DNA from: Propionivibrio soli
Lineage (GTDB): Bacteria; Pseudomonadota; Gammaproteobacteria; Burkholderiales; Rhodocyclaceae
Direction: 5' to 3'
Assembly: GCF_025770765.1 (NCBI RefSeq)
Contig: NZ_JANZKY010000002.1
Coordinates: 248,001-312,000 of the forward strand
DNA length: 64,000 bases
Shown: positions 11,701 through 64,000 of the stretch, in pieces
Position numbering within the stretch: position 1 is the stretch's first letter
Layout of the letters: each line of letters begins with the position of its first letter
Position numbers and translations under genes: made by a program
Notes under the pieces: model-generated
Database searches by the model: none
Seen by the model: the letters and a program-made list of their open reading frames with translations, nothing else
Told to the model about the DNA's origin: nothing

Positions 11701-11901
11701 ATGGGCGGCATGCTCGCCGCGACGTTCCTCGCGGTGTTCTTCGTGCCGCTCTTCTATCGGGTGATTACCGACCGGCGGCTGAGCGAAAAACGCAGCACCG
11801 CCGATATGTTCGAAGAAGTGAGGGAAACCCATGCCAAGACGCACGAGCGCCTGGTCAAACGGGCGCAACGCGACGAATACGTCGGAGACGAAGATGCGTA
11901 A
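8701..11901 (+). CDS. RND efflux pump inner-membrane transporter (HAE1 family)
   Basis: This 1066-residue proton-driven exporter fits the AcrB/MexB type in length and layout, with twelve predicted membrane segments and two large periplasmic loops. It begins MFSRFFIDRPIFAMVISIF as in the family. The TM4 proton-relay Asp pair is visible in GIVVDDAIVVLENVERI, and TM10 has GLAAKNAILIVEYA with its conserved Lys. The porter region contains SSFLQVLAF and NNRVKQAEARLPQEV. Family members export drugs, dyes, detergents or solvents; substrates cannot be inferred here. The gene lies 3 nt after its adaptor and overlaps the outer-membrane channel gene by 8 nt, making a complete tripartite operon. Confidence 0.97.
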   Translation: MFSRFFIDRPIFAMVISIFIIIAGLASMRTLPIAQYPEIAPPQVLVAATYPGASADVLEKTVAAPLETQINGVEGMIYMSSTSASNGRVEINVTFDIGTDIDQAVINVNNRVKQAEARLPQEVRRQGIQVEKNSSSFLQVLAFTSPDGRYDDLYTSNFVTLNVLDVLKRVPGTTNVQIFGAKDYAMRIWLQPDRLAQLRLATSDVVRAINEQNAQYAVGRIGQPPTAKGQELALTINTKGRLADVAEFENIVVRAGDDGSVLRLKDVARVELGSKDYDFIGRQNGQPATLVGIFLKPGANALDTAQAVKSTLQELSGRFPDGLTYTVPYDTTDFVQVSIREVVKTLGEAMVLVFLVVYLFLQNWRATLIPTLAVPVSLIGTFAGLLMLGYSINTLTLFGMVLAIGIVVDDAIVVLENVERIMHEEGLPAKAAAIQAMREVTGPVIAIVLVLCAVFVPIAFLGGLSGELYRQFAVTIAIAVVISGIVALTLTPSLCVLILRHEHKASNRFFDAFNRGFTRITGRYTGGVAWLIRRGALGLLLFAGMVVITAGLWKLTPGSLVPDEDQGYYISAVYLPDGASLERTDRIVQQVDEIIRSNPNVARTIVFTGFDFIGGSFKNNAATFFVTLKHWDEREVPANALVGELFMKTAHIKEALVLAFGPPAIFGLGNSGGFELYLQNRGEGDAKRLGEVSQQFIGKLHQDKTFGMVSSLWRSNVPQLDVDVDREKAKTLGVPIDGLFDTLAATLGTYYVNDFNKFGRTWQVLMSAEQSFRNNPSDIGGIYVRSERGQMVPLSALAQVKQTTGPETLERFNNLPSVKIIGNGAPGMSSGQVITQVERIARESLPPDFSYDWGGASFQEKKSSGSSSYALILGAIMVFLILAAQYERWSLPLAVLLALPFGTFGALAAVWLRNMDNDVYFQIGLVTLLGLAAKNAILIVEYAVYKNGEGMSAAAAAIEAARLRFRPILMTSLAFILGVVPLAFSHGAGAGARRAVGTGVMGGMLAATFLAVFFVPLFYRVITDRRLSEKRSTADMFEEVRETHAKTHERLVKRAQRDEYVGDEDA

Positions 11902-13375
11902 GCTCCCCTGCTCAAGCCACCCCGGTGACCGAACTAAAAGCCTTTCGGTGGCCGTTCTCACCGCACTCGCGTTGGCCGGTTGCGCCATTGGCCCTGATTA
12001 CCAGCGTCCAGACATCGACCTGCCAGCGCAATGGCGCTCGACACCGGCGGCCGACGCCGATGTTGCCCGGCCGGTGTCGGAAACCGGTGAGCGCTGGTGG
12101 TCAGTGTATGGTGATCCCGTGCTCGAACGTTTGGTCGACGAGGCGTTGAGCAACAACGCCGACGCGGCGATCGCCACCGCGCGGGTTCTGGAAGCGCGAG
12201 CAATCGCCAGCCAGACCGACGCCAACCTCTACCCGGACGTTTCCGCCAACTTCTCCGGCAGTCGCACTCGCAATACGCAGCGCGGCACCATGCCGGCGGG
12301 AGCGACGCCGCGCATGCAGAACTACTACAGCGCAACCTTGGACGTCAGCTACGAGATCGATTTGTGGGGCAAGTACCGGCGTGCAAGCGAGGCGGCGCGT
12401 GCCGACATCTTTGCGGCCGAATCGGCCCGCGAAGCGGTGCGCCTGTCGCTTGTAGCACAAGTCGCCCAGCAATACTTCGCCCTCCTCGCCGCCGACGCCC
12501 AAGTCGAAGTGGCCCGCCGTACGCTGACTTCGCGCGGCGAAACGCTGAATCTCTTTACCCGGCGCGTGGAGGCCGGAACGCTTTCGGAATACGAATTGCA
12601 CCAGGCCGTAGCCGAGCGCGAGGCGACCCGGTCGCAGCTTGCCAGCTTGATGCAAACGCAGGACCGTGCCGAGAGCGCGTTGTCGGTACTGCTCGGCCGA
12701 TCGCCGCGCGAGGTGATGAGCGGAGCGATGGAACGCGGCACACCAGCGCCTGTCAGGGACGTCGTGATTCCCGCCGGGCTCCCGTCCGAACTGCTCCTGC
12801 GCCGCCCCGATCTGCGCGAAGCGGAGGAAGCGCTGATCGCCGCCAATGCCCGTATCGGCAGCGCCCGCGCGCAGTTCTTCCCGTCGATCGGACTGACCGC
12901 CTTCCTCGGCAGCGAAAGCACGCAGTTTTCCGATCTCTTCAGTGGACCGGCCCAGGTCTTCCAGTTCGCCGCCGCCATCACACAGCCGATCTGGAACGCC
13001 GGTCGCATCCGGGCCGGGGTCTTCATCACCGAGGCGCGGCGCGATCAAGCCCTTGCACGCTATCGCAACGCCGTGGCGAGCGCCTTCAAGGACGTGCGCG
13101 ACGCGCTGGCAGCGCAAAGCGCGGCTCGCGAAACCCTGACGGCGGAAACGGCCCGCACCGCGGCCCTGGAAAAGGCGCTTGCCCAGGCGCAGTTACGCTT
13201 CGACGCCGGCGTTTCAAGCCGCATCGAAGTACTCGACGTCGAGCGCAACCTGCTCTCCTCGGAACTGGCGCGTATCGATAGCGAACGCCAACGCAAATCG
13301 GCGCTCGCCGACATGTTCAAGGCGCTGGGCGGAGGCTGGCCCGAGCCAGCGCCGGTCGGCGCCCTATCAAGATAG
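11894..13375 (+). CDS. Outer-membrane efflux lipoprotein (NodT/OprM family)
   Basis: This 493-residue TolC-like channel completes the tripartite pump. It has a lipoprotein signal ending ALAGC near residue 30, the family start CAIGPDYQRPDIDLPAQW, and two OEP repeats (about 75-270 and 290-475) with GLPSELLLRRPDLREAE and FFPSIGLTAFLGSES, typical of NodT proteins. The ATG at 11894 overlaps the end of the pump gene by 8 nt and has a GGAGACGAAG ribosome-binding site; the longer upstream frame is a shadow of the pump. It forms an outer-membrane trimer in relatives. The 86 nt that follow end in the terminator of the converging DUF1810 gene. Confidence 0.95.
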   Translation: MRKLPCSSHPGDRTKSLSVAVLTALALAGCAIGPDYQRPDIDLPAQWRSTPAADADVARPVSETGERWWSVYGDPVLERLVDEALSNNADAAIATARVLEARAIASQTDANLYPDVSANFSGSRTRNTQRGTMPAGATPRMQNYYSATLDVSYEIDLWGKYRRASEAARADIFAAESAREAVRLSLVAQVAQQYFALLAADAQVEVARRTLTSRGETLNLFTRRVEAGTLSEYELHQAVAEREATRSQLASLMQTQDRAESALSVLLGRSPREVMSGAMERGTPAPVRDVVIPAGLPSELLLRRPDLREAEEALIAANARIGSARAQFFPSIGLTAFLGSESTQFSDLFSGPAQVFQFAAAITQPIWNAGRIRAGVFITEARRDQALARYRNAVASAFKDVRDALAAQSAARETLTAETARTAALEKALAQAQLRFDAGVSSRIEVLDVERNLLSSELARIDSERQRKSALADMFKALGGGWPEPAPVGALSR

Positions 13376-13421
13376 GGCAGGAAAGACCGCGGGCGCTCGA
13401 ATGCCGGTCGACTAGCCAGGC

Positions 13422-13444
13422 AAAAAAGGAACCCCAACGGGTTC
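13422..13444 (-). terminator. Rho-independent terminator after the DUF1810 gene
   Basis: Reading the minus strand, GAACCC and GGGTTC pair around a 4-nt loop and are followed by CTTTTTT. It lies 17 nt past the DUF1810 stop and may also serve the converging efflux operon. Confidence 0.7.
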
Positions 13445-13461
13445 TGGCAACAAACCGTGCG

Positions 13462-13926
13462 TTATTTGGTGCCGAGCAAGCTCAGCGTCAGGCGGTCGCG
13501 CTGTCCGGAGTAGTACTTCTCGATGGCATCCGCGAACGGCCGGGCCGCAGCGGTACCTAACCCGGCGGCGGCTTCGAACAGCGTCACCGACGAGCAGAAT
13601 TTCAAATCATCCGGTTCGCCAAAGATTTCAAGCGCGCTTCGCCCGCTTACGGCATTGACGCATTGGGTACATTCAACAAGACGAGCCCCGAGAACGGGAT
13701 GCGCCAGGTAGGCGCTTGCTTCCTCCAAACCCTTTATCGCGTAGTAGCGGGCCGTGGAACTGCGCCCCAAGCCATCGAGTTGCGGAAAGATGAACCAGAT
13801 CCAGTGGGTGCGCTTGCGGCCGGCCGCCAGCTCAGCCAAGGCTTCGCCATACACCGTACGCTGGGCCGAAATGAAGCGTTCTAGGTCGAATTCGTCGCGC
13901 GCGGGGCCTTGGCCCGCCTCAGCCAT
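13462..13926 (-). CDS. DUF1810 family protein
   Basis: This 154-residue protein carries the DUF1810 signature: FDLERFISAQRTVYGEALAEL near the start, then THWIWFIFPQLDGLGRS, followed by a helical domain ending DAIEKYYSGQRDRLTLSLL. The function of the family is not established; it is a small soluble alpha-helical protein often found next to unrelated housekeeping genes. The ATG at 13926 sits 8 nt inside the end of the RlmN-like gene, so the pair is translationally coupled. The longer open frame upstream of this start only mirrors the RlmN-like gene. No signal peptide or membrane segment is visible. Confidence 0.85.
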   Translation of the reverse strand: MAEAGQGPARDEFDLERFISAQRTVYGEALAELAAGRKRTHWIWFIFPQLDGLGRSSTARYYAIKGLEEASAYLAHPVLGARLVECTQCVNAVSGRSALEIFGEPDDLKFCSSVTLFEAAAGLGTAAARPFADAIEKYYSGQRDRLTLSLLGTK

Positions 13927-15013
13927 TCGCGCCACCTTGTCGCCCCTCTGGCCGGGCGTTTTCCGCGTTGGCGGCCCGGAATTGCGCTGGGGCCACCTTT
14001 TCCAGCGGTATCGCCAACGTTCGTGCGCGCAACTGGCCGCAACCGCCGTCGATATCTTGTCCGGCGGAATCACGCAGGCTCGCCACGATGCCGCGCTCGC
14101 GCAACCGGCGCGCCAAGTCGACCGCACGCTCCCACGCCGGACGCTTGAACCCCAGCCCATCCACGGTGTTGAAGGGAATGAAGTTCATCATCGCGTACTT
14201 GCCGGCGAGCAACTCGGCCGCTCGGTCGACGTCGGCCTCGTTGTCGTTCACCCCTTCGAGCAAGGTCCACTGGTATTGGATCGGGTATCCCGTCGTCCGC
14301 GCATAGCGTTCGCCGTGCTCGATGAGTTCTTCGGGCGGCACGTGCGGCGCACGGGGCAGCAGCCGGGCACGCAATTCGCTGTTCGTTGTATGCAGCGAAA
14401 TAGCCAGCGCCGGTTTCACGCGGCCTTGCATCAGCCGATCGAACACGCGACGGTCGCCGACAGTCGAAAACACGAGGTTCTTGTGCCCGATCGCACCCTC
14501 CGTACCGAGCAGATCGATGGCTTCGAGCACATTGCCCATGTTGTGCGCCGGTTCACCCATGCCCATGAAAACCACTTTGCCAACCTTGCGGCGATGACGC
14601 GCAAGCACCACCTGGGCGACGATTTCGGCGCTGCCCAATTGGCGCCGGAGCCCTTCCCGGCCGGTCATGCAGAAGGCGCAGCCGACCGCACAGCCGACCT
14701 GTGTCGACACACAGACGCCGTCGCGCGGCAGCAGGACGCTCTCGACAGTCTGCCCGTCAGCCAAACGGACCAGCAATCGCGCCGAACCGTCCTGCCCCGG
14801 GTGTTCCGAGTACACTTGCGCCATGCGCTCGAGTTCGGAGGCCACCGCTGGGAGAACACCGCGCACACCGAGCGGCAGGAAGTCTTCGGAGCGCTGCCGT
14901 CGCGTGCCCTCGTCGAGCGATCGGGCATGCACCCACGCGCGCAGGACGCGCTGCTCATGACACGGCTTGGCACCATGATCGCGCAGGCTTTGGCGGATTT
15001 GTTCGATACGCAT
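13919..15013 (-). CDS. RlmN/Cfr-like radical SAM RNA methyltransferase (probable paralogue)
   Basis: This 364-residue protein has the radical SAM cluster motif CAVGCAFC at about residue 110, the FMGMGEPAHN region, SLHTTNSELRARLLP and the C-terminal GQDIDGGCGQL. The Cys just before the cluster (GVCVSTQ) and the one in GGCGQL occupy the places of the two catalytic Cys of RlmN and Cfr, which methylate A2503 of 23S rRNA (RlmN also acts on some tRNAs). The N-terminus (MRIEQIRQSLRDHGAKPCHE) does not look like typical RlmN, and none of the usual betaproteobacterial rlmN neighbours (ndk, ispG, hisS) is here. It is therefore more likely a paralogue with a different site. It overlaps the DUF1810 gene by 8 nt. 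Confidence 0.8.
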   Translation of the reverse strand: MRIEQIRQSLRDHGAKPCHEQRVLRAWVHARSLDEGTRRQRSEDFLPLGVRGVLPAVASELERMAQVYSEHPGQDGSARLLVRLADGQTVESVLLPRDGVCVSTQVGCAVGCAFCMTGREGLRRQLGSAEIVAQVVLARHRRKVGKVVFMGMGEPAHNMGNVLEAIDLLGTEGAIGHKNLVFSTVGDRRVFDRLMQGRVKPALAISLHTTNSELRARLLPRAPHVPPEELIEHGERYARTTGYPIQYQWTLLEGVNDNEADVDRAAELLAGKYAMMNFIPFNTVDGLGFKRPAWERAVDLARRLRERGIVASLRDSAGQDIDGGCGQLRARTLAIPLEKVAPAQFRAANAENARPEGRQGGANG

Positions 15014-15153
15014 GGGGAAGGCCCAATGTTAACACTCGAACGCCACCCCGCGGTAGCGGACGCGGCAAAGAAAAGGTAAATTCCCGGGCCGCCCTCGATT
15101 GCGCGCCCCAAGGCAAGACTAAATGGCAATTGCGCGGCAACTGTGCGGCCATT

Positions 15154-15172
15154 GCGACGCTCAGGGCGTCGC
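15154..15172. repeat. Perfect inverted repeat in the rlmN-like/guaC divergent region
   Basis: GCGACGC and GCGTCGC flank a 5-nt loop. There is no T tract on either side, so it is not an obvious terminator. It sits about 140 nt upstream of the RlmN-like start, within the 378-nt gene-free stretch 15014-15391. Confidence 0.5.
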
Positions 15173-15207
15173 GGTTATTGGTACTTGGGCCCATCGGGCT
15201 GAAATAA

Positions 15208-15266
15208 CGGTCTATAAATCGCGGTTTATAAATCGGAGCGGTTCGTAAATCGGGGCCCGTAAATCG
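15208..15266. repeat. Four degenerate 14-nt tandem repeats ending TAAATCG
   Basis: Units 15208-15221, 15222-15235, 15236-15252 and 15253-15266 all end in TAAATCG and share a C/G-rich first half. Three are 14 nt and one is 17 nt. The array has no coding frame across units and lies in the divergent region upstream of guaC. It may be a regulatory site cluster or an eroded minisatellite. Confidence 0.6.
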
Positions 15267-15352
15267 AAATCGGTAAGGCCGGCAGCGTAGAGCGCCAGGT
15301 CGTAACACGCTGGACACGGGGCCATCAGAATTGTATCGGCCCGGGGACTTTT

Positions 15353-15371
15353 CAGGATATACATTATCCTG
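15353..15371 (+). promoter_or_regulatory. Palindrome CAGGATA-N5-TATCCTG just upstream of guaC
   Basis: The 7-nt arms are perfect, and the site ends 20 nt before the guaC ATG. It overlaps AT-rich, -10-like sequence (GATATACATTAT). This position suits an operator or a 5' untranslated hairpin; no regulator gene is adjacent. Confidence 0.5.
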
Positions 15372-15391
15372 GCATATTCAAGGAGAATGCA

Positions 15392-16435
15392 ATGCGCATT
15401 GAACAAGACATGAAGCTCGATTTCAAGGACGTTCTGCTGCGTCCAAAACGCTCGACGTTGACGTCGCGTTCGGAAGTCGACATCTCGCGGGAATTCGTCT
15501 TCCTGCACTCGAAACGCAAGTACCACGGCATACCGATCATCGCCGCCAATATGGACGCCACCGGTACCTTCCAGATGGCACGGGCGCTCGCCAAGCATCA
15601 GCTGTCGGTGGCGCTGCACAAGCACTACGGCGACCAGGAGCTGCTCGACTTCTTTGCCGAGCAGCCTGAATCGCCGCCCATGTTCTACTCGATGGGAATC
15701 ACGGCACCGGACTACGAGAAATTTTCGCGCGTCATGAAAGGGGCGCGCGGCACAATCCAGAACGTGTGCGTAGACGTGGCCAACGGCTACACGAAAGCCT
15801 TCATCAACTTCATCGTCAAGCTGCGCACGGCGCATCCTGAACTCACCATCATGGCGGGCAACGTCGTTACCGGCGAGATGACCGAGCAGTTGATCCTGGA
15901 CGGCGTCGATATCGTCAAGGTCGGCATCGGTCCGGGCTCCGTGTGCACAACGCGGCGCATGTCGGGAGTCGGCTATCCGCAACTGTCGGCAATCATCGAA
16001 TGCGCCGACGCGGCCCACGGCCTGCACGGCCTGATCTGTGCCGACGGCGGCTGCACGTCGCCAGGCGATCTGGCCAAGGCGTTCGGCGCCGGTGCCGACT
16101 TCGTGATGCTCGGCGGCATGCTCGCCGGTCACGACGAGTGCGGCATGGATGTAGTTGAGGAGAACGGCGTGCGCAAGATGCGCTTCTACGGCATGAGTTC
16201 GCGCGAGGCGATGAACAAATATGCCGGCGGCGTAGCCGATTATCGCGCATCAGAGGGCAAGGAGGTGCTTCTTGAATGCCGCGGCCCGGTCGAGAACACG
16301 CTGCAAGACATTCTCGGCGGCGTGCGCTCCGCCTGCACTTACGTCGGCGCCCGGCGCCTCAAGGAGCTTTCGAAACGCACGACCTTTATCCGGGTGTCGC
16401 AGCAACTGAACGAAGTATTCGGCTCGGTCGGCTGA
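15392..16435 (+). CDS. guaC: GMP reductase
   Basis: GuaC converts GMP to IMP with NADPH and ammonia release, returning guanine nucleotides to the purine pool. The 347-residue length equals that of the well-known enterobacterial enzyme. Visible features are [13 protein letters not shown] at the N-terminus, [12 protein letters not shown], the catalytic loop [12 protein letters not shown] with its Cys, and [19 protein letters not shown] domains found in the related IMP dehydrogenase are absent, which supports GuaC. An AAGGAG ribosome-binding site precedes the ATG. The gene stands alone, converging on an ABC exporter operon; its upstream region contains a palindrome and a repeat array that may regulate it. 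Confidence 0.96.
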
Positions 16436-16478
16436 CCGGCAGATCGGACGCCCTCGGAGCGACAAACGCGCGTCGCTC

Positions 16479-17657
16479 TCAGGCGGCGCGCAGCGCATCG
16501 ACAATGTTCATCCGCGCCGCGCGAGCGGCCGGAAGGACACCGCCTACCAACCCCATCGCCAGCGCAAAGGCGAGGCTCTTTCCCACGATACCGGGCGTCA
16601 GCGTGAACGAGAAGGCCAGTTCGGAGAACGACTGCCAATTCATCGTCGAAATCGTCAGGAGTTGCATGGTGGACGCGAGGCCAAGCCCGATCGCGCCACC
16701 AAGCAGCGACAGGAAGAGCGATTCGAGCAGAAAAGCCGCCAGCACGCTGCCCTTGCGAAAACCCAGCGCACGCAGCGTCCCTATCTCGCCGGTACGGTTC
16801 GACACGGCGGCGTACATGGTGATCATGGCGCCGATCACGGCACCGATCGAGAAGATCACCGAGAGCGAAAGCCCGAGAATGCGTATGAAGGTCGACAGCG
16901 CTTGCGACTGGTCGGCATAGAACTGCGTCTCGCGCTTCGCCTCCAGCGTCAGGCGCTGGTCGCTCTCGATGGCCCCCTTGACCGCGTCGAAGGCCGCCGA
17001 ATCGCTGAGCCGGAAAACGAGCGCCGAATACACGGGCCGGCGGAACGCCTGCATCAACTGGTCGACGTCACCCCAGATTTCGGAGTCGAATCCTGACTTG
17101 TTCGCGTCGAAGAGGCCGACGATGACCCACTCGCGCCCGCCGAAGCGCAACGACTCGCCGAGGCCGGCATTGGCGAAACGCTCGGCGATCGCGCGGCCGG
17201 CAACGATCTCATTGCTGCCGGGCCGGAACAGGCGTCCGTTCACGACTTGTATCTGCGGCCGCAAAGCGAGCCCCATTGGCGACACGCCGCGAATGACGAC
17301 GTTCGACGGCTTTTGCGGCGCGGCGCCAACCTGCCGCTTGTTGAGCGAGATCAAGACGACGGTTTCCTTCGACACCTGGCGCTCACCATCGGCACCGAGC
17401 GCGATTTGTGGCAGGCTCTCGACGATCGCCGCCTGCGCGCGTTCCATCGCGCTTTGAACCTCCGTCCCCGACGCACGGCGGGTCACGACCACGTTCTCGG
17501 GTGAGCCAGTTTCAACGAGCGTCCGGCGCAGACCTTCGTCGAGCATCAGTACGGCGGCGAAGACGAAAACGACAAGCGCCAGACCGCCGGCCGTAAGCGC
17601 CGTCGTCAGCTTGCGCGTCCAGAGATTGCGCAGGGAGTAAGCGATCGGTAGACGCAT
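16479..17657 (-). CDS. ABC exporter permease, FtsX/MacB-like (second permease)
   Basis: This 392-residue membrane protein has the FtsX-type layout: one N-terminal membrane segment (TTALTAGGLALVVFVFAAVL), a periplasmic domain of about 220 residues, then three membrane segments near the C-terminus with RTGEIGTLRALGFRKGSVLAAF between the first two. The start ATG at 17657 gives the usual MRLPIAYSLRNLWTRK cytoplasmic lead; the longer frame overlaps the neighbouring gene. It lies 8 nt after a second, different FtsX-like permease, so the exporter is probably a heteromer. The substrate is unknown; relatives move lipoproteins, peptides, macrolides or glycolipids. Confidence 0.9.
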   Translation of the reverse strand: MRLPIAYSLRNLWTRKLTTALTAGGLALVVFVFAAVLMLDEGLRRTLVETGSPENVVVTRRASGTEVQSAMERAQAAIVESLPQIALGADGERQVSKETVVLISLNKRQVGAAPQKPSNVVIRGVSPMGLALRPQIQVVNGRLFRPGSNEIVAGRAIAERFANAGLGESLRFGGREWVIVGLFDANKSGFDSEIWGDVDQLMQAFRRPVYSALVFRLSDSAAFDAVKGAIESDQRLTLEAKRETQFYADQSQALSTFIRILGLSLSVIFSIGAVIGAMITMYAAVSNRTGEIGTLRALGFRKGSVLAAFLLESLFLSLLGGAIGLGLASTMQLLTISTMNWQSFSELAFSFTLTPGIVGKSLAFALAMGLVGGVLPAARAARMNIVDALRAA

Positions 17658-17665
17658 GCCGTCAG

Positions 17666-18820
17666 TCACCCGATGCTGCGTAAACCGTCGACGATCTTCA
17701 CCCTCGAGGCATTGAACGCGGGCAGCGCGGCGGCCACCAAGCCGACAGCTGCCGCGCAGGCGATCTGCCAACAGAGCGTCGCTTTCGAAACGACGAAGAC
17801 TGGAAAGAGCGTTCCCATTGCCTTGGCGAAGGCGTCGGCAACCGGGAACGTAAGCGCGATACCTACAGCCCCGCCAATGCCGGCGATGGCCAGCGACTCG
17901 CCGTAGATCAAAGCCATCACGAACGCCGGTCCAAAACCCAGTGCTTTCAACGTGGCGTATTCGGCCGTGCGCTCGCGCGCGGTCATCGCCATCGTGTTGG
18001 CCATGACCGCGAGGATAATGAAGATGACGAGATACGAGACGACTCGGATCGCGACCACGATCGCTTCCGTCATCGACACGAAGCCGAGTTGGAAAGCCTT
18101 CTCCGTCTCGGTCAGCGTTTCGGCATTGCTGTTCCTGAACTCGGCGTCGATCGCGCGGCTCACTTCAGCAGCCCGCGCAGGATCGCCGACCTCGACGATA
18201 TACACGCCCACCTGATTCCCGCGCCGGGGTACGCGGACCTTCATCGTCTCGTTGAGATAATCCCAATGGAACAGCATTTGTGCCACATCGGTGCGGGCAT
18301 CGCGCCCCGTGTAGATTGCGCGCACGACGAAGTCCCATTCGCCCGGATAGATCGTTCCCTTGAGCGTTACCGTATCGCCGCGTTTGAAACCATAGGTCGC
18401 CGCGAGTTTCTCGCCGACCATCACGCCCTTGCGGTCGCGCAGGAAGTCGCGGCGGTCCACGTCGCTGAGGACGAATTCGGGGTAGAGGTCGAGGTAGGTC
18501 GACGGGTCGATGGCGAACTGAACGAAGAAATTCTTCGGGTCCTTGTAGATGCCGCCGAACCAGTTGGCGAGCGACACCGCCTTCACGCCATCGATCTGAT
18601 GGATTTTCTGTTCGTACGTGAGCGGTAGCGGGAACACGAGTGAAATCGAGTTGCGCACGATCAGCCGCGCGTTCGATGCACCCTCCGCGCCGGCGTACCA
18701 CGCTTCGATCACGGTCGACAGCAGGCCGAAGGCGAGCACGGCGACGGTCAGCCCGACGACGGTCAGCGCTGTGCGCAGCTTGTGGCGGAAGGCGTTGCGG
18801 AAGACCAGCGCGAGGATCAT
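17666..18820 (-). CDS. ABC exporter permease, FtsX/MacB-like (first permease)
   Basis: This 384-residue protein has the four-segment FtsX fold: LRTALTVVGLTVAVLAFGLL near the N-terminus, a periplasmic region of about 230 residues, and three C-terminal segments with TAEYATLKALGFGPAFVMALI in the coupling loop. It starts 5 nt after the ATPase gene and is followed 8 nt later by a second permease with a different periplasmic domain. The four genes (adaptor, ATPase, two permeases) read as one operon. The arrangement resembles MacAB-like and DevBCA-like exporters, except that the ATPase is a separate protein. Cargo cannot be assigned. Confidence 0.9.
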   Translation of the reverse strand: MILALVFRNAFRHKLRTALTVVGLTVAVLAFGLLSTVIEAWYAGAEGASNARLIVRNSISLVFPLPLTYEQKIHQIDGVKAVSLANWFGGIYKDPKNFFVQFAIDPSTYLDLYPEFVLSDVDRRDFLRDRKGVMVGEKLAATYGFKRGDTVTLKGTIYPGEWDFVVRAIYTGRDARTDVAQMLFHWDYLNETMKVRVPRRGNQVGVYIVEVGDPARAAEVSRAIDAEFRNSNAETLTETEKAFQLGFVSMTEAIVVAIRVVSYLVIFIILAVMANTMAMTARERTAEYATLKALGFGPAFVMALIYGESLAIAGIGGAVGIALTFPVADAFAKAMGTLFPVFVVSKATLCWQIACAAAVGLVAAALPAFNASRVKIVDGLRSIG

Positions 18821-18825
18821 CGTTC

Positions 18826-53603: not shown

Positions 53604-53746
53604 GTCGGGGGTTTTTACAACAACCCATTGATAGAAAGTCACCGAGACCCTCCAACCCCTGGCCATACAACCGATTCAGGCGAGTGGCTCGATTTTCGCT
53701 TACCACCGCAATGGAGGAACTGGCCTTCGTAAATTGGAGAAAATCA

Positions 53747-54301
53747 ATGAAACAGAACAGGACAGAACAGAGGGGACAATCCGCAAAAAGCTTGCGTAAA
53801 ATAATCGGCGGAGTCGCCACCGCGCTATGCCTCGGACTTGCGGGCTCGGCCAACGCGATGCTCAGCCCTTCAATCACCAACACGGGCGGCGCCGAGTATG
53901 ACACGGCCGGCGTCTACTTCTTTGGCGATATCACGTTTACCGGCTCGGTCAACGATGCGGGCGGCTACGATCAAGCATTGTTCCGCATTTGGGACGATGG
54001 CGTGAAGAAATTCGAGAAACTGCTCCAGGTACTCGTCGGCACCACGATGACCTTCCATGTCGAAACGCAATACCCAGGACTGATCGGCAGCAGCGCACCC
54101 GGTCTGGGACTGGACCTTTACGACATGCCATCCGGCCAGAACGTTCTGAGCATCGATCCGTTCTATCTCCCCCACTACGCAGATCCGAGCCAATGCCAAG
54201 TCAATTGCGGCCCGCAAGGCGTTCCTGAGCCAGGAAGCCTGCTGCTAACGGCGCTTGGTCTGGGCGCTCTTGGACTACGTCGTCGGACGAAGGCAGATTA
54301 A
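53747..54301 (+). CDS. PEP-CTERM sorting-domain exported protein
   Basis: The 184-residue protein has a Sec signal (IIGGVATALCLGLAGSANA, cleavage about residue 37), a central domain of about 110 residues with no recognised fold, and a C-terminal PEP-CTERM sorting signal: VPEPGS, then a hydrophobic stretch LLLTALGLGALGL and RRR. Exosortase cuts such proteins, and they are usually linked to exopolysaccharide or floc matrix in Gram-negatives. The exosortase is not in this window. GGAG 8 nt before ATG 53747 decides the start. A strong terminator follows, so it is monocistronic. Confidence 0.9.
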   Translation: MKQNRTEQRGQSAKSLRKIIGGVATALCLGLAGSANAMLSPSITNTGGAEYDTAGVYFFGDITFTGSVNDAGGYDQALFRIWDDGVKKFEKLLQVLVGTTMTFHVETQYPGLIGSSAPGLGLDLYDMPSGQNVLSIDPFYLPHYADPSQCQVNCGPQGVPEPGSLLLTALGLGALGLRRRTKAD

Positions 54302-55771: not shown

Positions 55772-57423
<1,652 letters not shown>

Positions 57424-57553: not shown

Positions 57554-58963
57554 TCAGTTCACGCGTTCCGATCGCGAGGTCCGTCGCGGCAACTCAATGG
57601 CCGCGCAAAGCCCGCCTTCCGTACGGTTGGTCAGCCGAATATCACCGCCGTGGGCTCGAATCAAGTTGCGCGCAATGGTGAGGCCGAGCCCGCTCCCGCC
57701 GGTTTCCCGATTGCGGGAGGTCTCCGCACGAAAGAACGGGTCGAACACTTTTTCCAGCAAGTCCTGCGCAATCCCCGGCCCTTCGTCGAGAACGCGAATC
57801 ACGAGGCGTTCTGCTGAATCTTCAATCTCGATCCGAGCGCTCCCACCGAACTTCAGCGCATTGTCGACGAGGTTTTGCGTTGCGCGAGTGAGCGCTCTCA
57901 GAGCACCCCGATAAGGCTGCTGAGCCGTTCCCGACAGTGTGCAGTCCCCTCCGGCATCTGTCGCGTCGTCGACCATTCCTTCGAGCCAGTGATTGACTTC
58001 GATCGCACTGTGCGGCTCAGAGGGATGAGCACTGCGCGCATAATCCAGCCCTTCTCTCACAAGACCGGCCATGAGATCGACATCGGCCACCATACGCTCG
58101 CGATGCGAGTCGCACTCGATCGCTTCTGCCCGCAAGCGGAGTCGGGTCAACGGCGTTTGAAGGTCATGTGAAATAGCCGCCAGGATCTGCGTGCGCTCGT
58201 CGAGTTGACGCAGAATGCGCTCGCGCATCCCGTTGAATACGGCGGCCGCACGTTTGAGTTCTATGAGCCCGGTTTCCGGCAGCGGCGGCGAGGCAATGTT
58301 ACGACCGAAACGTTCGAGGGCGTCGAGCATGATCGTGATTCGCCGCATCGTGAGACGTACCGCCCACCACACAAAGGGAGTCACGGCGACGAGGACGGCG
58401 AGTAGGTAGAGTGCGAGCGTGCCGCCGCTCGGTCGGGCAAACGGGTCGACCAGATGCAAAACCATCGTTTGCTGTACGTCCAGCGGGAGCAGGATCTGCA
58501 CGTACGTTTCATCGAGGTCGCGGCACATCGACCACGTCATGCAATAAAGCGGCAATAGAAGCCGCTGAAGTTTCGACGCGTTGGCCGTCACTTCGGCAGC
58601 CTGAGGATGCAGGAAAACGGGCTTTACGTCGGCGGGAAGGTGCTGCTCGAGCAATCTCAGGAGGCCGGCGACACGTCGATCTTCTTCGAAGCCAACGGTC
58701 GCCCCTGGAGCGGATTTCCGGTCCAGAAGGGAGAAAGTGTAATAGCCGCGGTCCAACCGGGGCAGCCATGCGATTCGCTCCTCAGGCGGCAAGGAACGCA
58801 TGAACTCGAACACGAAGGCCACGTCAGCCCCCATGAACCGCTCCATCTGCAGGCGGCTTTCATTGCCGCGAAAAGCAAGAAAGGCCCCGAAGCTGCCAAC
58901 CTGAACGACCACCAAGCCGATGGCCAGGATGGCAAAGACACGTGCGGATAACGACTGGAACAT
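57554..58963 (-). CDS. Two-component sensor histidine kinase (EnvZ-like)
   Basis: The 469-residue protein has a membrane segment at about residues 10-30, a periplasmic sensor region of about 150 residues containing two Cys (YCMTWSMC), a second membrane segment (LALYLLAVLVAVTPFVWWAV), HAMP, the dimerisation box ISHDLQTPLTRLRLRAEA with the phosphorylated His, and an ATPase domain with NLVDNALKFGG, DEGPGI and GGSGLGLTIARNLI. It is 2 nt downstream of its response-regulator gene. It probably senses an envelope signal and controls the divergent transport operon; the signal is unknown. Confidence 0.93.
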   Translation of the reverse strand: MFQSLSARVFAILAIGLVVVQVGSFGAFLAFRGNESRLQMERFMGADVAFVFEFMRSLPPEERIAWLPRLDRGYYTFSLLDRKSAPGATVGFEEDRRVAGLLRLLEQHLPADVKPVFLHPQAAEVTANASKLQRLLLPLYCMTWSMCRDLDETYVQILLPLDVQQTMVLHLVDPFARPSGGTLALYLLAVLVAVTPFVWWAVRLTMRRITIMLDALERFGRNIASPPLPETGLIELKRAAAVFNGMRERILRQLDERTQILAAISHDLQTPLTRLRLRAEAIECDSHRERMVADVDLMAGLVREGLDYARSAHPSEPHSAIEVNHWLEGMVDDATDAGGDCTLSGTAQQPYRGALRALTRATQNLVDNALKFGGSARIEIEDSAERLVIRVLDEGPGIAQDLLEKVFDPFFRAETSRNRETGGSGLGLTIARNLIRAHGGDIRLTNRTEGGLCAAIELPRRTSRSERVN

Positions 58964-58965
58964 GG

Positions 58966-59703
58966 CTACCCCTCGTAGCGCACGGTCTGCGCGAAGACGT
59001 AGCCCTCGTTGCGTACCGTGCGAATGTACTGGGGATCGCGCGCGTCGTCGGCGAGACGCCGGCGAAGGCGGCTAACGCGCAAATCGATCGATCGGTCAAA
59101 TACATCCGACTCTCTGCGAACCAGTTGTGCCAGCAACTGGTCGCGGCTGAGAACGCGTTGCGGATGATCGAGGAATAGCCGAAGCAATGCATACTCCGCG
59201 CTGCCGAGGGGCGTCACGACGTTGTCGGCATCAACGAGATTGCGCTGAGCCAAGTCGAGGCGCCATGCGCCGAAATGCGCGACGCGTGCCGGCGCCTCCA
59301 CCATAGCGCCCGGTGGGAGCATGCGCGTGCGCCTAAGCACCGCGCGGACCCGTGCCACGAGTTCCCGGGGGACAAACGGCTTGGTGAGGTAATCGTCAGC
59401 CCCCAGCTCGAGCCCGATGATGCGGTCCACGTCATCCGAGCGCGCCGTCAGCATGAGTACCGGGACGGCATCCCGACGTCGCGTTCTCAAATCCCTGAAC
59501 AGAGTCAATCCGTCTTCGCCGGGCAGCATGAGGTCAAGCACGATGAGATCCACTGGAACCCCCTCGGCCAGCGTCTCGCGCATCTGCTTTCCGTCGCGGG
59601 CGAGCGATACGCGGAAACCATTGCGTTCGAGATAGTCGCCAACCAGTTCCCGGATGCCGCGGTCGTCGTCCACCACAAGAATGTGGTCGAGCCGTTCCTC
59701 CAT
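58966..59703 (-). CDS. OmpR/PhoB-family response regulator
   Basis: The 245-residue protein has a receiver domain with the acidic pair VVDDD, phosphorylation site DLIVLDLMLPGEDG, the Thr/Ser MLTAR and Lys in YLTKPF, then a winged-helix DNA-binding domain (LGSAEYALLRLFLDHPQRVLSRDQLL to RRRLADDARDPQYIRTVRNEGY). ATG 59703 gives a normal lead (MEERLDHILVVDDD). It pairs with the downstream histidine kinase and is divergent from an ABC transport operon. Four hexamer half-sites in the intergenic region may be its operators. Confidence 0.95.
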   Translation of the reverse strand: MEERLDHILVVDDDRGIRELVGDYLERNGFRVSLARDGKQMRETLAEGVPVDLIVLDLMLPGEDGLTLFRDLRTRRRDAVPVLMLTARSDDVDRIIGLELGADDYLTKPFVPRELVARVRAVLRRTRMLPPGAMVEAPARVAHFGAWRLDLAQRNLVDADNVVTPLGSAEYALLRLFLDHPQRVLSRDQLLAQLVRRESDVFDRSIDLRVSRLRRRLADDARDPQYIRTVRNEGYVFAQTVRYEG

Positions 59704-59811
59704 CTGTTCGCAAGCCTCCCAATCGTCTTGGCGGCGGGCATGCCACGCACCTTCTTGGGCAGCATTACACGCGTTTCGCACAGGGTTGCCAAGCGGGAGC
59801 GCCGCGCGATT

Positions 59812-59887
59812 TGTATCCCAATGTATCGAGCTCGTCGACGACAAGAAACGATACAAGTCCCACGCGCATCGACAAATGAGCGATACA
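59812..59887. promoter_or_regulatory. Four TGTATC/GATACA half-sites in the divergent promoter region
   Basis: TGTATC occurs at 59812-59817 and 59822-59827, exactly 10 nt apart, the spacing typical of OmpR-family direct repeats. The complement GATACA follows at 59850-59855 and 59882-59887. All lie between the response regulator and the ABC operon, so autoregulation and operon control are plausible. The remaining parts of the 293-nt gap show nothing else. Confidence 0.6.
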
Positions 59888-59996
59888 TCGACGGCTTCAA
59901 ATGCTAACTAACGCCGGTGGCATTTCGAAAACGCGATCTCTTTCCATCAGCTCTGCGCTGAAGGGCACCGGCCAAACGCTCCACAGGAGACAGACA

Positions 59997-60710
59997 ATGG
60001 TTTCAGCCACAGCAACACCCGCCGCGCAGTTACGCGGTATTCATAAACACTACCGACTCGGAGAGGTGGATGTCCCGGCGTTATGCGGAATCGATCTCGA
60101 TCTTCCCCGCGGCGTGTTCTCGGTCATCGGCGGCCCGTCGGGGAGCGGCAAAAGCACGTTGCTCAACCTGCTTGGTTGCATCGACGCGCCCGATGCAGGC
60201 AGCGTAGACGTCGATGGCCAAGCCGTGGCCGCGCTGGGCGACACGCAGCGGACACGTTTCCGGGCCCGCCATGTCGGTTTCGTGTTCCAGAATTTCAATC
60301 TGATCCCCGTACTCACGGCGATCGAAAACGTCGAATATCCTTTACGTCTGCTCGAGGACAACGCGCCCCGTCGGCGCGATATGGCGCGCTCGGCCTTGAT
60401 CGAGGTAGGACTGGAAGGCCTGGAGGACCGGCTCCCCTCCGCGCTCTCCGGTGGGCAGCGTCAACGCGTCGCGGTCGCTCGGGCGCTGGCCAAACGGCCC
60501 GCGCTCGTCCTTGCCGATGAGCCGACAGCCAACCTCGATCAGGCCACCGGCCGCGGGCTGATCGACCTGATGCGGCGCATTCAGAGCGCGACGGGCGCCA
60601 CGTTCGTTTTCTCTTCACACGATCCGCAGTTAATCGCGGAAGCCGATTTGCGCGTCCATCTCGTCGACGGGAGGGTAACGGCCATCGATACGCGGGGAGG
60701 AAACGCATGA
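59997..60710 (+). CDS. ABC transporter ATP-binding protein (LolD/MacB type)
   Basis: The 237-residue ATPase has Walker A GPSGSGKST, Q-loop FVFQNFNLIPVL, signature LSGGQRQR, Walker B LVLADEPTANLD and H-loop FSSHD. The NFNLIPVL sequence is typical of the LolD/MacB subgroup that pairs with FtsX-like permeases. ATG 59997 follows AGGAGACAGACA; the longer frame lacks support. It overlaps the permease gene by 4 nt. It is divergent from a two-component system and begins the transport operon. Confidence 0.94.
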   Translation: MVSATATPAAQLRGIHKHYRLGEVDVPALCGIDLDLPRGVFSVIGGPSGSGKSTLLNLLGCIDAPDAGSVDVDGQAVAALGDTQRTRFRARHVGFVFQNFNLIPVLTAIENVEYPLRLLEDNAPRRRDMARSALIEVGLEGLEDRLPSALSGGQRQRVAVARALAKRPALVLADEPTANLDQATGRGLIDLMRRIQSATGATFVFSSHDPQLIAEADLRVHLVDGRVTAIDTRGGNA

Positions 60711-62098
60711 ACTCCCTCAATCTTGCGTGGCGCAACATTCTGCGTAATCGTCGGCGTTCGCTGCTCACCCTTGCGGCGATCGGGGTCGGCAGTTTCGCGA
60801 TCATCCTCTTCGGAGGGCAAGTCGTCTCGACGATCCGCGGCCTCTACACGGAGACGATCCGTGCGGCCGGACACCTGCAAATCCAGCAGAAAGGCCACCT
60901 CGAATTCGGGCGGGCGAATCCCGGCCGTTTTGCGATTTACAACTATGAGGCCCTTGTCGATCAGCTCCGCAATGACGAGTACCTGGCACCTCGCCTGGCC
61001 GTCGTCACTCCGATCCTCCATGTACAAGGGGTGGCCGGGAACTTTGATGCCGGCATGTCCAGCGCCTTCTCGGGACAAGGCGTCGTTCCCGCCGATCAGA
61101 AAACGATGCTGGCCTGGGACGGCCTTCGCCTGGGGCAGGCGCCGACCGCATCGCCTCTCCTCCCCGACGACCCGAACGGCGGCGTTATCGGGCGCGGATT
61201 GGCGCAACTTCTCGGGCTGTGCCCTGCGCTGGCTCTCACCGATTGCGCCCAAATGCCTCCGGAAACGATTGCCGACGCAGCGCCCTTGCCCACCGATGTC
61301 GCCGCGCTGGCCGAAAAAACCGCGTCGCCAACGGCGCCTGAAAAACACAACGGCCGGGTAGGCATCGAACTGCTTGCCGCTTCGCCCAGCGGTGCCCCCA
61401 ATGTCGTGCGCATGGATGTGCTGGCCGCGGAAAGGCAAGGTGTGCGCGAACTCGACAATGTACTCATCGGGCTGCCACTGCCGCTGGCACAGAAAATGGT
61501 ATTCGGCGCCGCTACGCCGGCCGTTTCATCGATCGTCGTTCAACTCAAGCACGCCGGCGACCTGGAACCCGCCCGTACCCGTATTCAAGAGATCGTTGCA
61601 CGCAACGGAGCCCCTCTCGAAGTGCTCGACTTCCACGTCATCAACCCGACGTTCGACCAGATCATCGGCATGTTCGGCGCCATCTTCCGCTTCATCGCCC
61701 TGCTCATGAGTATCGTCGCCTTGTTCTCGGTCGCCAACGCCGTAAATATGGCAGTCAGCGAGCGTGTGGGAGAGATCGGCACGTTACGCGCGCTCGGTTT
61801 TGAGCGACGCCACATTCGAGCCATTTTCGTTACCGAGGGAGCCCTGCTTGGGCTGGTCGGCTCGATCGCCGGTTCTCTCGCAGCCGTCGCGCTCGCCACC
61901 TGGATAAACCGCGTCGGGGTAACGTGGACGCCACCGGGAAGAACCGCCCCCGTCGCGCTTGGGGTCGACGTTTTTGGTGACTCCCGCCTGCTTTTGCTCA
62001 CGGTTGCCGTTACGATCGGTCTGGCCTGTGTGTCCGCATGGCTTCCATCCCGGCGCGCGGCCCGCATGGAAATCGTGGAGGCGCTGCGCCATGCGTGA
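60707..62098 (+). CDS. ABC permease, FtsX/MacB-like
   Basis: The 463-residue protein has one N-terminal membrane segment (LLTLAAIGVGSFAIILFGGQ), a periplasmic domain of about 280 residues with QIQQKGHLEFG, and three C-terminal segments; VGEIGTLRALGFERRHIRAIF couples to the ATPase. The periplasmic domain is larger than in the second exporter of this window and includes a low-complexity Ala/Pro stretch. A single permease gene suggests a homodimer. Its start overlaps the ATPase gene by 4 nt and its end overlaps the LolA-like gene by 8 nt. Confidence 0.92.
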   Translation: MNSLNLAWRNILRNRRRSLLTLAAIGVGSFAIILFGGQVVSTIRGLYTETIRAAGHLQIQQKGHLEFGRANPGRFAIYNYEALVDQLRNDEYLAPRLAVVTPILHVQGVAGNFDAGMSSAFSGQGVVPADQKTMLAWDGLRLGQAPTASPLLPDDPNGGVIGRGLAQLLGLCPALALTDCAQMPPETIADAAPLPTDVAALAEKTASPTAPEKHNGRVGIELLAASPSGAPNVVRMDVLAAERQGVRELDNVLIGLPLPLAQKMVFGAATPAVSSIVVQLKHAGDLEPARTRIQEIVARNGAPLEVLDFHVINPTFDQIIGMFGAIFRFIALLMSIVALFSVANAVNMAVSERVGEIGTLRALGFERRHIRAIFVTEGALLGLVGSIAGSLAAVALATWINRVGVTWTPPGRTAPVALGVDVFGDSRLLLLTVAVTIGLACVSAWLPSRRAARMEIVEALRHA

Positions 62099-62924
62099 TA
62101 TACCTTTTGCCACAGTCTTCCGGCGCGCTTTCGTATTGGTTTCCTGCACGCTGTTTGCCGGCTTTGCTTACGGAGCCGACGACCTGCCGCCGCGCTCTCC
62201 GAATCCCGCACGCAAAGGGGAAGCGCAGGCGCTGATCGCCGCCACCGACGCCGTACGAAATCCCGAGGGGAGCTTTGCGGTCGACGTATTGCTCAATGAA
62301 TACCGCAATGGCCGGCTCAATGCGTCGTCGTCCCTGATCGTCTATTCCCGCCCCAACCCGAATTCCGGTCAATACCGGAATCTGGTGCGCTTCGCCGCAC
62401 CCGCCCGAGACGCCGGAAAGTTGATGTTACGCAACGGCGTCGACCTCTGGTTCTACGATCCGGCAAACCGCGCCAGTGTCCGCATCTCGCCACAACAAAG
62501 GCTACTCGGGCAGGCGTCGAACGGCGATGTCATGACCACGAATCTCTCGCGCGACTTCGACGCGGAGTGGATGGGAGAAGAAACAATCAGCGACGGCGAG
62601 AAGCGGGAGCGGCACTCCGTGGTTCTGAGGTTGCGCGCGACCCGAGACGACGTCGCCTATCCGCTCGTCGATTATTGGGTCGACCCGGTAAACAAGCAGC
62701 CGATCAAGGCGGCCTATTACACGGATCAAGGGCGGCTGCTGAAAACCGCGTGGTTCCGGCGCTTCGAAGAAGAACTGGGTACCGTGCGCCCGACCGAAAC
62801 AATCATTGTGGACGGACTCAACAACCAGTGGGTCACGATCATGCGCAATTCAAACTATCGCTACCGCGACGTACCGGAAGCATGGCTGCAGCGCGACTAC
62901 CTTGCCCGCTTCACGGGGGATTAG
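62091..62924 (+). CDS. Periplasmic outer-membrane lipoprotein-sorting protein (LolA-like)
   Basis: The 277-residue protein has a signal peptide (AFVLVSCTLFAGFAYGA, cleavage about residue 27) and a LolA/LolB-like half-barrel fold signature: LMLRNGVDLWFYDPANRASVRISPQQRLLG, SRDFDAEWMGEE, YPLVDYWVDPVNKQPIKAAYY. Such proteins carry hydrophobic lipids or lipoproteins across the periplasm in a lipid-binding cavity. It overlaps the permease by 8 nt, with GGAGG before the ATG, and is followed 3 nt later by a predicted beta-barrel gene. Its pairing with an FtsX-type ABC transporter rather than with lolCDE is notable. The cargo is unknown. Confidence 0.88.
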   Translation: MRDIPFATVFRRAFVLVSCTLFAGFAYGADDLPPRSPNPARKGEAQALIAATDAVRNPEGSFAVDVLLNEYRNGRLNASSSLIVYSRPNPNSGQYRNLVRFAAPARDAGKLMLRNGVDLWFYDPANRASVRISPQQRLLGQASNGDVMTTNLSRDFDAEWMGEETISDGEKRERHSVVLRLRATRDDVAYPLVDYWVDPVNKQPIKAAYYTDQGRLLKTAWFRRFEEELGTVRPTETIIVDGLNNQWVTIMRNSNYRYRDVPEAWLQRDYLARFTGD

Positions 62925-62927
62925 GCC

Positions 62928-64000
62928 GTGTATCGCGCGCCACGACTCTGGGGCGGACGTCGTTTTCTGGGCGGCGTGGCAACCTTGGCCTCACTCGCGG
63001 CGTATCAACTCAGTGGCACAGCGGTGGCGGCGGCGATCAACCCCCTCGATCTCTCGATTGAACCGGTGCCATCGTCGCCAGTACCTGCAGAAACAAGGAG
63101 TAGCGACCAGACAAGCCTTGAGGCCTGGCTACAGGGATATACCTGGCGCAACGCGGACCGTTCTGCCTCGGAACCCGCGCCGGATCGCCAGGCACGCGTC
63201 GCGCTCGACTACCGGCGCGACTGGCGGCTTTCATCGCAGTGGCGCGCCAGCGTTTCAGACCGTCTCGAAAGCGCGCGCGGGCTGAACGATTCATGGCGCG
63301 AGACGCACCACATGCTGCGCGAGGCGTATCTCACCTGGAATAACGACAGTGGCGGCAAGAACGACACGAGTGACGGCGCAGCGGGCGGACGTACCGAATT
63401 GTTCGTCGACGTTGGCCGCATCAACCAGCGTCTAGGCGTAGCCACCGGCTATAACCCCACCGATTATTTTCGTGGGGGGGCTGTCGTCAGCACGACTTCA
63501 CAGAACCCGGCGACGCTTCGGCAGAACCGCCTCGGTACCGTGGCAACCCGCGCGCAATGGGTGACCGCAGGCCAATCTTTATCGTTTTCCTGGGTCCCGC
63601 GCCTTTCCCATCGCGACACCCCGGACGATGGCGACTTCGCGCTTGGACTGGAACGGACGAATCGCGAAGAAGCGTTTTTGTTCCGCTGGTCGCCGCGGGT
63701 GGATGAGAGGTTCTCGCTCGACGTCCCGCTGCTCATGCGCGGTTCGCGACTTGAGACCGGAACCAACGCCACGCTCCTTGTCGGCGACGCTTTGGTTTTC
63801 GCTTTCGAAGCGAGTGTAGCCAAACGCGAAAGCCTGCCGGAAGTCAGGCAAGCCATGGCTGGACTGTCGAGTGGCGAACAGCGTTACACCCGCGCGGCGT
63901 TCGGCGCGACGTGGACCGCCGAATCAGGAATCTCGCTCACTCTAGAGCGGCATCACGCTGGAGACGCGTTGTCGCGCGACGCCTGGGCCTCCTGGCGGAG
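62928..64000 (+). CDS. Predicted outer-membrane beta-barrel protein of the transport operon (partial)
   Basis: The frame from GTG 62928 stays open to the window end (357 codons). An N-terminal signal-like stretch (FLGGVATLASLAAYQLSGTAVA) is followed by a linker and then repeated amphipathic strands with aromatic belts, such as ARVALDYRRDWRLSSQWRAS, EAFLFRWSPRV and SLSFSWVP, as expected for an outer-membrane barrel. GRINQRLGVATGYNPTDYFR resembles motifs in alginate-export-like or DUF1302-like barrels, but I cannot assign a family. It begins 3 nt after the LolA-like gene. The start is uncertain, since a GTG with weak ribosome-binding site is used. Confidence 0.75.
   Translation, partial: MYRAPRLWGGRRFLGGVATLASLAAYQLSGTAVAAAINPLDLSIEPVPSSPVPAETRSSDQTSLEAWLQGYTWRNADRSASEPAPDRQARVALDYRRDWRLSSQWRASVSDRLESARGLNDSWRETHHMLREAYLTWNNDSGGKNDTSDGAAGGRTELFVDVGRINQRLGVATGYNPTDYFRGGAVVSTTSQNPATLRQNRLGTVATRAQWVTAGQSLSFSWVPRLSHRDTPDDGDFALGLERTNREEAFLFRWSPRVDERFSLDVPLLMRGSRLETGTNATLLVGDALVFAFEASVAKRESLPEVRQAMAGLSSGEQRYTRAAFGATWTAESGISLTLERHHAGDALSRDAWASWR

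Follow-up and report, generated by a model that had tools for sequence, protein, structure and literature searches.

How hydrophobic natural products pass over the periplasm and the outer membrane is, to our knowledge, largely open, and an operon of Propionivibrio soli raises the question at a single locus: what is carried by Lol-like transport genes that run into a predicted barrel gene and lie divergent from a two-component pair? The operon stands at the end of a 64,000-nucleotide stretch of a 4.76-Mb genome (NCBI RefSeq assembly GCF_025770765.1, contig NZ_JANZKY010000002.1, positions 248,001 to 312,000 of the forward strand), referred to hereafter as the window. We judge the chances to be evenly balanced that these genes specify an export line across the cell envelope, driven by ATP and able to be switched on, whose cargo is an acylated, lipid-like small molecule or a lipopeptide. 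The locus contains the following features (Pfam E-values in brackets):

57554..58963, minus strand: sensor histidine kinase, EnvZ-like, 469 aa; HisKA and HATPase_c (1.7e-25), with HAMP below cut-off.
58966..59703, minus strand: response regulator, OmpR-type, 245 aa with the ATG at 59703 as start; Response_reg (1.5e-29).
59812..59827, plus strand: direct repeat TGTATC-N4-TGTATC, half-sites 10 bp apart; putative operator of the regulator.
59850 and 59882: further copies of the half-site in reverse orientation (GATACA), in the regulator-ATPase intergenic region.
59997..60710, plus strand: ATP-binding cassette (ABC) ATPase of the LolD/DevA/MacB type, 237 aa with the ATG at 59997 as start, picked by eye from an AGGAG upstream; ABC_tran (9.1e-31).
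60707..62098, plus strand: FtsX-like (type VII ABC) permease, 463 aa; FtsX (9e-19).
62091..62924, plus strand: LolA_like periplasmic carrier (PF17131), 277 aa, N terminus signal-peptide-like by eye; LolA_like (2.2e-34).
62928..64000, plus strand, running past the end of the window: putative outer-membrane beta-barrel, GTG start; family alignment A4.

The initial annotation had described a kinase and regulator divergent from an overlapping run of ATPase, permease, carrier and barrel genes, and the gene set and its order were borne out by the open reading frames (ORFs) and their Pfam matches. The 3- to 8-nt overlaps it reported hold for the ATPase/permease (4 nt) and permease/carrier (8 nt) junctions, but not for the carrier and barrel genes, which are separated by a gap of 3 nt. 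In the contig, the full barrel ORF encodes 469 aa and ends at the equivalent of window position 64337 (L009). Since the long ORF that follows (SHMT-like by eye) runs convergently, the operon probably ends at the barrel.

Is this run of genes a unit? A search with the carrier returned 336 relatives in named genomes, the best 80 of which were kept and, together with G038, made up a set of 81 loci, mainly betaproteobacterial. A barrel profile placed a barrel gene after the carrier in all 81, including L064, where it lies ~1.2 kb downstream; this count is partly circular, because 55 of the 56 sequences that seeded the profile came from these same loci. Upstream of the carrier we found the ATPase in 76/81 loci and the permease in 75/81, some of the missing matches being due to contig ends. 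The window locus fits this module of ATPase, FtsX permease, LolA_like carrier and barrel, with the same order and strand and a barrel of family A4. Close to home the barrel is rare, occurring in 2 of 59 genomes (its own included) and in none of 27 genomes of the same genus, several of which are incomplete; in the order of Hyalangium versicolor (L087) it occurs in 4 of 145. When the profile was run against 369 genomes of the class and 398 of the phylum, it gave 17 distinct matches besides the window's own. LolA and/or the permease shared the locus in 15 of these, neither did in L105/L124, and L099/L131 was cut by a contig end. Barrel homologues apart from the operon, which the initial annotation had named as evidence that would count against it, thus turned up once only, and the barrel family is tied to the operon. 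One further barrel match, in G393 (L015/L017), was set aside as chance, being a 38% match inside an ORF that by eye resembles an HpnE-like desaturase. Taken together, these findings indicate that the four genes are a real and widely conserved unit, in agreement with the single transport unit first proposed.

Indications of a cargo come from the neighbors of related modules. In a permease tree, the window falls in a clade of 12 loci (support 100/100). Nine of these, including the window, have a divergent EnvZ/OmpR-type pair, while the other three, in a Rubrivivax metagenome-assembled genome (MAG; L032), Myxococcus dinghuensis (L060) and Hyalangium versicolor (L087), are linked to a biosynthetic cluster. 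These three have in common, on the downstream side, genes for a KAS III-like protein, a GNAT-like protein, two more KAS III-like proteins, an ATP-grasp protein and an acyl carrier protein (ACP), followed by MATE and acyl-CoA dehydrogenase genes. The cluster starts 33-34 nt after the barrel in both myxobacteria and ~6 kb after it in Rubrivivax, behind a ketosynthase and other genes, and the Rubrivivax cluster proteins are 41-65% identical to those of both myxobacteria. That the Rubrivivax MAG and the two myxobacteria share this one KAS III/ATP-grasp/ACP/MATE cluster (L166 4268-17494; L159; L160) suggests a transfer between phyla.

Cluster links were also found among more distant modules. One (L117/L134) has ketosynthases and an acyltransferase nearby, and another (L121/L135) has a halogenase-like flavoprotein as well as acyl-CoA dehydrogenase and AMP-ligase genes recognized by eye; GNAT-like, GcvT-like, dehydratase, dehydrogenase and AMP-ligase genes in L134/L135 were likewise assigned by eye. 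Modules of Enterobacter bugandensis and Rahnella lie in acyl or natural-product clusters, and one Aliiroseovarius module is adjoined by both a regulator/kinase pair and two ketosynthase genes. A plasmid search gave 43 match rows, some from the same record, of which nine were opened, the Enterobacter, Rahnella and Aliiroseovarius loci among them, five for breadth and four as a check; profile matches confirmed the module in L168-L172, while in L173-L176 it is known from annotation. Acyl or peptide biosynthetic genes lie near the module in five of the nine (L168, L169, L170, L172 and L176). In the Escherichia coli IncK2/Z plasmid L172 (NZ_CP060058.1, 322-10708) they are ACP, ketosynthase-like and enoyl-CoA hydratase genes. 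In L168, a stretch without gene annotation on a Burkholderia cenocepacia replicon, the module lies beside homologues of KAS III, a pyridoxal phosphate (PLP) decarboxylase, an A-domain and acyl-CoA dehydrogenase, with citrate-synthase-like and methyltransferase genes identified by eye. A sixth locus, L171, has a P450 and a phosphopantetheinyl transferase only, a weak case that nevertheless carries the cluster label in the tree described next. Mapped onto a tree of 44 permeases, the cluster-linked label has to change four times, and well-supported branches force at least three of these changes, with the proviso that several cluster-linked rows have long branches and that the label of L171 is weak. 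Sugar-nucleotide and catalase-related genes seen by eye in one betaproteobacterial branch were regarded as ordinary neighbors and set aside.

We then asked how the window operon might be switched on. The regulators at all eight sister operons are 61-70% identical to that of the window, and its kinase aligns along most of its length with the kinases at six of the eight, at 34-45% identity, with shorter matches in L033 and L093. Scores fell below the equivalog cut-offs (174.6 of 415 bits for EnvZ and 248.3 of 331 bits for OmpR), and the pair belongs to the EnvZ/OmpR superfamily; we do not call its members orthologues. The repeat TGTATC-N4-TGTATC occurs in exact form once in the P. soli genome, as against no occurrence of a reversed-pattern control, and with up to one mismatch it would be expected 0.07 times in the window. 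Exact copies were found in 3 of the 80 named loci (1.18 Mb), namely L018, L019 and L020, all of which carry a regulator of the window's type. If one mismatch is allowed, the repeat is present in six of the eight loci with that regulator, three of them (L030, L033 and L053) having a one-mismatch copy in the intergenic region, compared to 1 of the 72 others (L031). No repeat was found in the clade members without the regulator (L032, L060 and L087). Since the repeat is genome-unique and tracks the regulator type, the simplest explanation is that it is probably a private operator of the OmpR-type regulator. The two-component control assumed from the outset is accordingly supported by a conserved, genome-unique repeat lying between regulator and operon. 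As a separate observation, an ORF with a shared signature lies between regulator and ATPase in five of the nine clade loci (L018, L019, L020, L030 at 4998-5468, and L033); it was tested in L030 only, where it matches DUF2141 (PF09912, 1.7e-35), and the window has no such ORF.

Other modules have a different pair. A LytS-type kinase gene lies downstream in 14/81 loci and a LytTR-type regulator gene in 12/81, the LytS-type family assignment having been tested on the kinase of G038. Nine genes beside distant modules were also scanned: five encode PF06580 kinases (L099, L103, L111, L112 and L114) and the other four a peptidase, a phosphodiesterase, a thiolase and an acyltransferase. In Vibrio and Plesiomonas plasmids, by annotation only, genes for an ATPase, a permease, a carrier, a hypothetical protein, a histidine kinase and a LytTR regulator stand in a row.

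With respect to the individual parts, the carrier scores 119.2 bits against PF17131 (Pfam gathering score 30 bits) and matches no other family at E<=0.1; this includes the classical LolA family, which we take to be PF03548. Its nearest solved structure is 3buu (NE2245; 4.1e-33). The nearest solved relatives of the permease are YtrF, LolF, LolE and LolC, all matching its C-terminal portion from residue 231 or later. Cys172 and Cys180 of the permease, which lie in a portion presumed to be periplasmic, are invariant in 52/52 aligned sequences and may form a disulfide loop. No Pfam family matches the barrel protein at a threshold as loose as E<=10, and hence neither the Omp85 family nor DUF1302 (PF06980) does; kinship with DUF1302 was further rejected because the DUF1302 barrel of this genome, compared with it by profile, gave a probability of 0.2%. 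Among its relatives, 53 of 76 uncut sequences end in F, Y or W, compared to 32 of 633 neighboring ORFs. Of 57 members searched against Pfam, three matched OMP_b-brl and one each Porin_O_P, BBP2 and OmpA_membrane (weak matches, best E 0.0015-0.048), and five matched DUF7259, a family of unknown function. Owing to these aromatic C termini and weak barrel-family matches, the gene product is likely an outer-membrane barrel.

We propose the following route. The histidine kinase would sense a signal, upon which the OmpR-type regulator would bind the TGTATC repeat and turn on the divergent operon. In type VII ABC systems, the ATPase drives a permease that acts at the outer face of the inner membrane, where substrates are pushed or extracted and do not travel through a pore. 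The ATPase and a permease dimer would in this manner draw an amphiphile from the inner membrane and hand it to the LolA_like protein, which would shield its acyl part across the periplasm; the barrel, in the place of LolB, would then receive the cargo and pass it to the outer leaflet or the medium. A lipid-like metabolite is the most likely cargo because several relatives sit inside clusters that apparently make fatty or lipopeptide compounds, and it is on this linkage that the proposed cargo class is based. The initial annotation had suggested lipid or lipoprotein; its inner-to-outer-membrane logic stands, and we narrow the cargo to a lipid-like small molecule or lipopeptide, dropping lipoprotein sorting, because relatives of several branches lie in acyl clusters, the parts score far below the Lol cut-offs and a true LolC/E is present at another site in the genome. 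The genes beside the window operon do not make such a cargo, which would therefore be made elsewhere in the genome or come from outside. More tentatively, and with somewhat less than even confidence, we suggest that the module represents an unnamed Lol-like class of exporter in Pseudomonadota and Myxococcota, moving lipopeptides or acylated natural products via a dedicated barrel, either within clusters or as a stand-alone module with a private two-component switch; in that case the window copy would be an orphan under a regulator that senses the cargo.

Several observations weigh against this proposal. Matches to ketosynthase (KS), KAS III or ACP were found in only 3 of the 80 kept relatives, all in one branch; five more (L035, L056, L062, L065 and L067) match only AMP-ligase/A-domain, acyl-CoA dehydrogenase or malonyltransferase. 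Among 17 distant stretches (L117-L133) only L117 matches, the cluster of L121 being visible in its extension, L135. Twelve query enzymes, among them KS, KAS III, ACP, AMP-ligase, malonyltransferase, FabZ, phosphopantetheinyl transferase and acyl-CoA dehydrogenase, gave no match in the 64-kb window or L009. Three of the nine opened plasmid loci (L173, L174 and L175) have no annotated biosynthetic genes nearby, and in L175, from Bdellovibrio, the gene order also differs. In the order containing L060 and L087, the two other barrel loci (L157 and L158) show by eye neither a two-component pair nor a cluster. The window row joins two-component rows (98/38) in one tree and cluster rows (89/56) in another, and because the two trees disagree its closest partner within the clade is unsure. 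The repeat is degraded in L073 (two mismatches) and L093 (three mismatches), and a sigma-70 promoter scan of the intergenic region found nothing. In 5 of the 80 loci (L072, L075, L076, L083 and L095) there is no permease match although upstream DNA is present; in these the ATPase is directly followed by carrier and barrel. The beta-amphipathicity of the barrel is weak, 31 of 500 shuffles being as high. Finally, deletion of afcI, whose product is described as an outer-membrane channel and which belongs to the afc system compared below, left a wild-type production profile of the compound AFC-BC11, according to the portion of the report consulted (PMC12186527).

The strongest rival for the window copy is an inducible resistance pump, in which the kinase would sense foreign membrane-active amphiphiles such as lipopeptides or polyketides and the operon would expel them from the inner membrane, the stand-alone modules with two-component pairs being immunity cousins of the cluster-linked exporters. 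Such modules are common, with a kinase in 8/81 loci for the OmpR-type pair and 14/81 for the LytTR-type, and in Vibrio and Plesiomonas as well; the absence of biosynthetic genes near the window module and the patchy distribution noted above, including the 27 barrel-free and partly incomplete genomes of the same genus, point the same way. We nevertheless consider a resistance pump unlikely, since the literature consulted yielded no phenotype and, in our judgment, a barrel of its own together with a soluble carrier would be a high price for an efflux pump. A second Lol-like route for special lipoproteins, with the barrel as a surface-display step, would account for the LolD-like ATPase, the LolC/E-like FtsX domain and the LolA-superfamily carrier, and lipoproteins are among the non-polar ligands proposed for the Borrelia BBJ23-29 cluster in the text available to us (PMC13078400). 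This route is distinctly improbable given that ATPase and permease lie far below the LolD and LolC/E cut-offs, the carrier matches PF17131 only, a true LolC/E is encoded elsewhere in the genome and relatives are linked to acyl biosynthetic clusters. Bulk traffic of envelope lipids under stress control, serving phospholipid, glycolipid or hopanoid homeostasis, is very unlikely: EnvZ/OmpR-like control and the stand-alone state of most of the 80 relatives would suit it, but the cluster linkage and the patchy, rare occurrence of the barrel are unlike a housekeeping lipid path.

If export of a lipid-like metabolite is correct, a four-gene module recurring in acyl clusters would offer a testable route without a TolC-type conduit and a marker with which to find such clusters, and the private regulator with its defined candidate operator could serve in a search for the signal. 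Solved LolA-superfamily structures such as 3buu, most of whose functions are said to be unknown in the part of the report consulted (PMC6394551), would gain a likely role.

Further genes surround the operon. A DolP-like lipoprotein gene with a double BON domain adjoins it (window 56767-57423; NCBIfam model 138.1 of 184 bits), with RsmI-, YraN- and SIS-like ORFs, assigned by eye, upstream of that gene. PEP-CTERM-like C termini were seen by eye in nearby ORFs at window 53684-54301 and L009 12262-13326. The same genome contains a second LolA_like system (L013, G000:C4:95000-114000, at 9268-18823), in which the carrier gene is divergent from a LolD-like ATPase gene that is followed by genes for a DUF1302 barrel (7.6e-8), a PEP-CTERM protein and two FtsX permeases; methyltransferase-, nitroreductase- and ThiF-like genes were recognized there by eye.

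How does the window operon compare with known systems? It shares with LolABCDE an ATPase, an FtsX-type permease and a LolA-superfamily carrier. The ATPase scored best against LolD (TIGR02211) among the 25 families shown, albeit at 195.9 bits versus a cut-off of 307.75, and the permease reached 65.1 bits against LolC/E (TIGR02212), whose cut-off is 362.45; the separate true LolC/E elsewhere in the genome scored 521.5 bits. A barrel-like gene takes the place of LolB, and no operon protein matched the LolB family, a result confined to the operon since no genome-wide LolB search was made. Unlike in MacAB-TolC, ATPase and permease are separate genes (MacB_PCD, 23.4 of 27 bits), and no match to a membrane fusion protein was found among the operon proteins scanned.

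The initial annotation knew of no characterized system with this layout. That statement needs amending: comparable parts occur in the afc cluster (PMC12186527) and in Borrelia BBJ23-29 (PMC13078400), with roles that the consulted portions of those reports propose and do not demonstrate, and the Vibrio and Plesiomonas plasmids carry the layout with a LytTR pair, by annotation only. The afc cluster of the Burkholderia cepacia complex makes the N-acyl-tetrapeptide AFC-BC11, for which its authors propose trafficking across both membranes, calling AfcI an outer-membrane channel (PMC12186527). By our reading L168 is probably this cluster; it has the ATPase, the permease (4.6e-48), the LolA_like carrier (3.7e-22) and a weak barrel match (2.5e-4), yet its carrier and permease are only ~24% identical to those of the window. 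We infer that the L168 carrier gene is BCAS0219, whose PF17131 product appears in a table of the surface-exposed immunoproteome (PMC7565204, in part). The afc genes differ further in having the LysR-type regulator ShvR in place of a two-component pair and biosynthetic genes in the cluster, as far as the excerpts consulted indicate (PMC12186527, PMC6301696). In Borrelia BBJ23-29, a computational study with unknown cargo, a type VII ABC permease and ATPase, a LolA-like carrier and an outer-membrane beta-barrel likewise lie in one cluster; the barrel is of the Omp85 family, two further chaperones and one unknown protein are present, and the portion of the report consulted does not mention an adjacent two-component pair (PMC13078400).

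Among the matches listed, as judged from titles and the starts of abstracts and with preprints and most subscription papers outside the scope, there was no paper on the module as a family. The other systems closest in logic, again from partial texts, are AmeABCD of Castellaniella, with a LolA-superfamily carrier, an inner-membrane pump, a hydrophobic cargo and an outer-membrane DUF1302 protein (PMC6394551), and ApeLMN of aryl polyene clusters, with such a carrier, pump and cargo, LolA-like transport having been proposed for aryl polyene lipids (PMC8253772). Both differ from the window operon in using a resistance-nodulation-division pump rather than an ABC system, together with a DUF1302 barrel (Ame) or a LolB-like protein (Ape) (PMC6394551, PMC8253772). 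YbbAP-TesA, for which extraction of hydrophobic molecules by a type VII ABC system has been proposed, has a periplasmic hydrolase as partner, and the text consulted names no carrier or barrel (PMC12646458). What appears to be new in the window operon and its kin is that a new barrel family joins Lol-like parts, under private two-component control and with relatives in biosynthetic clusters.

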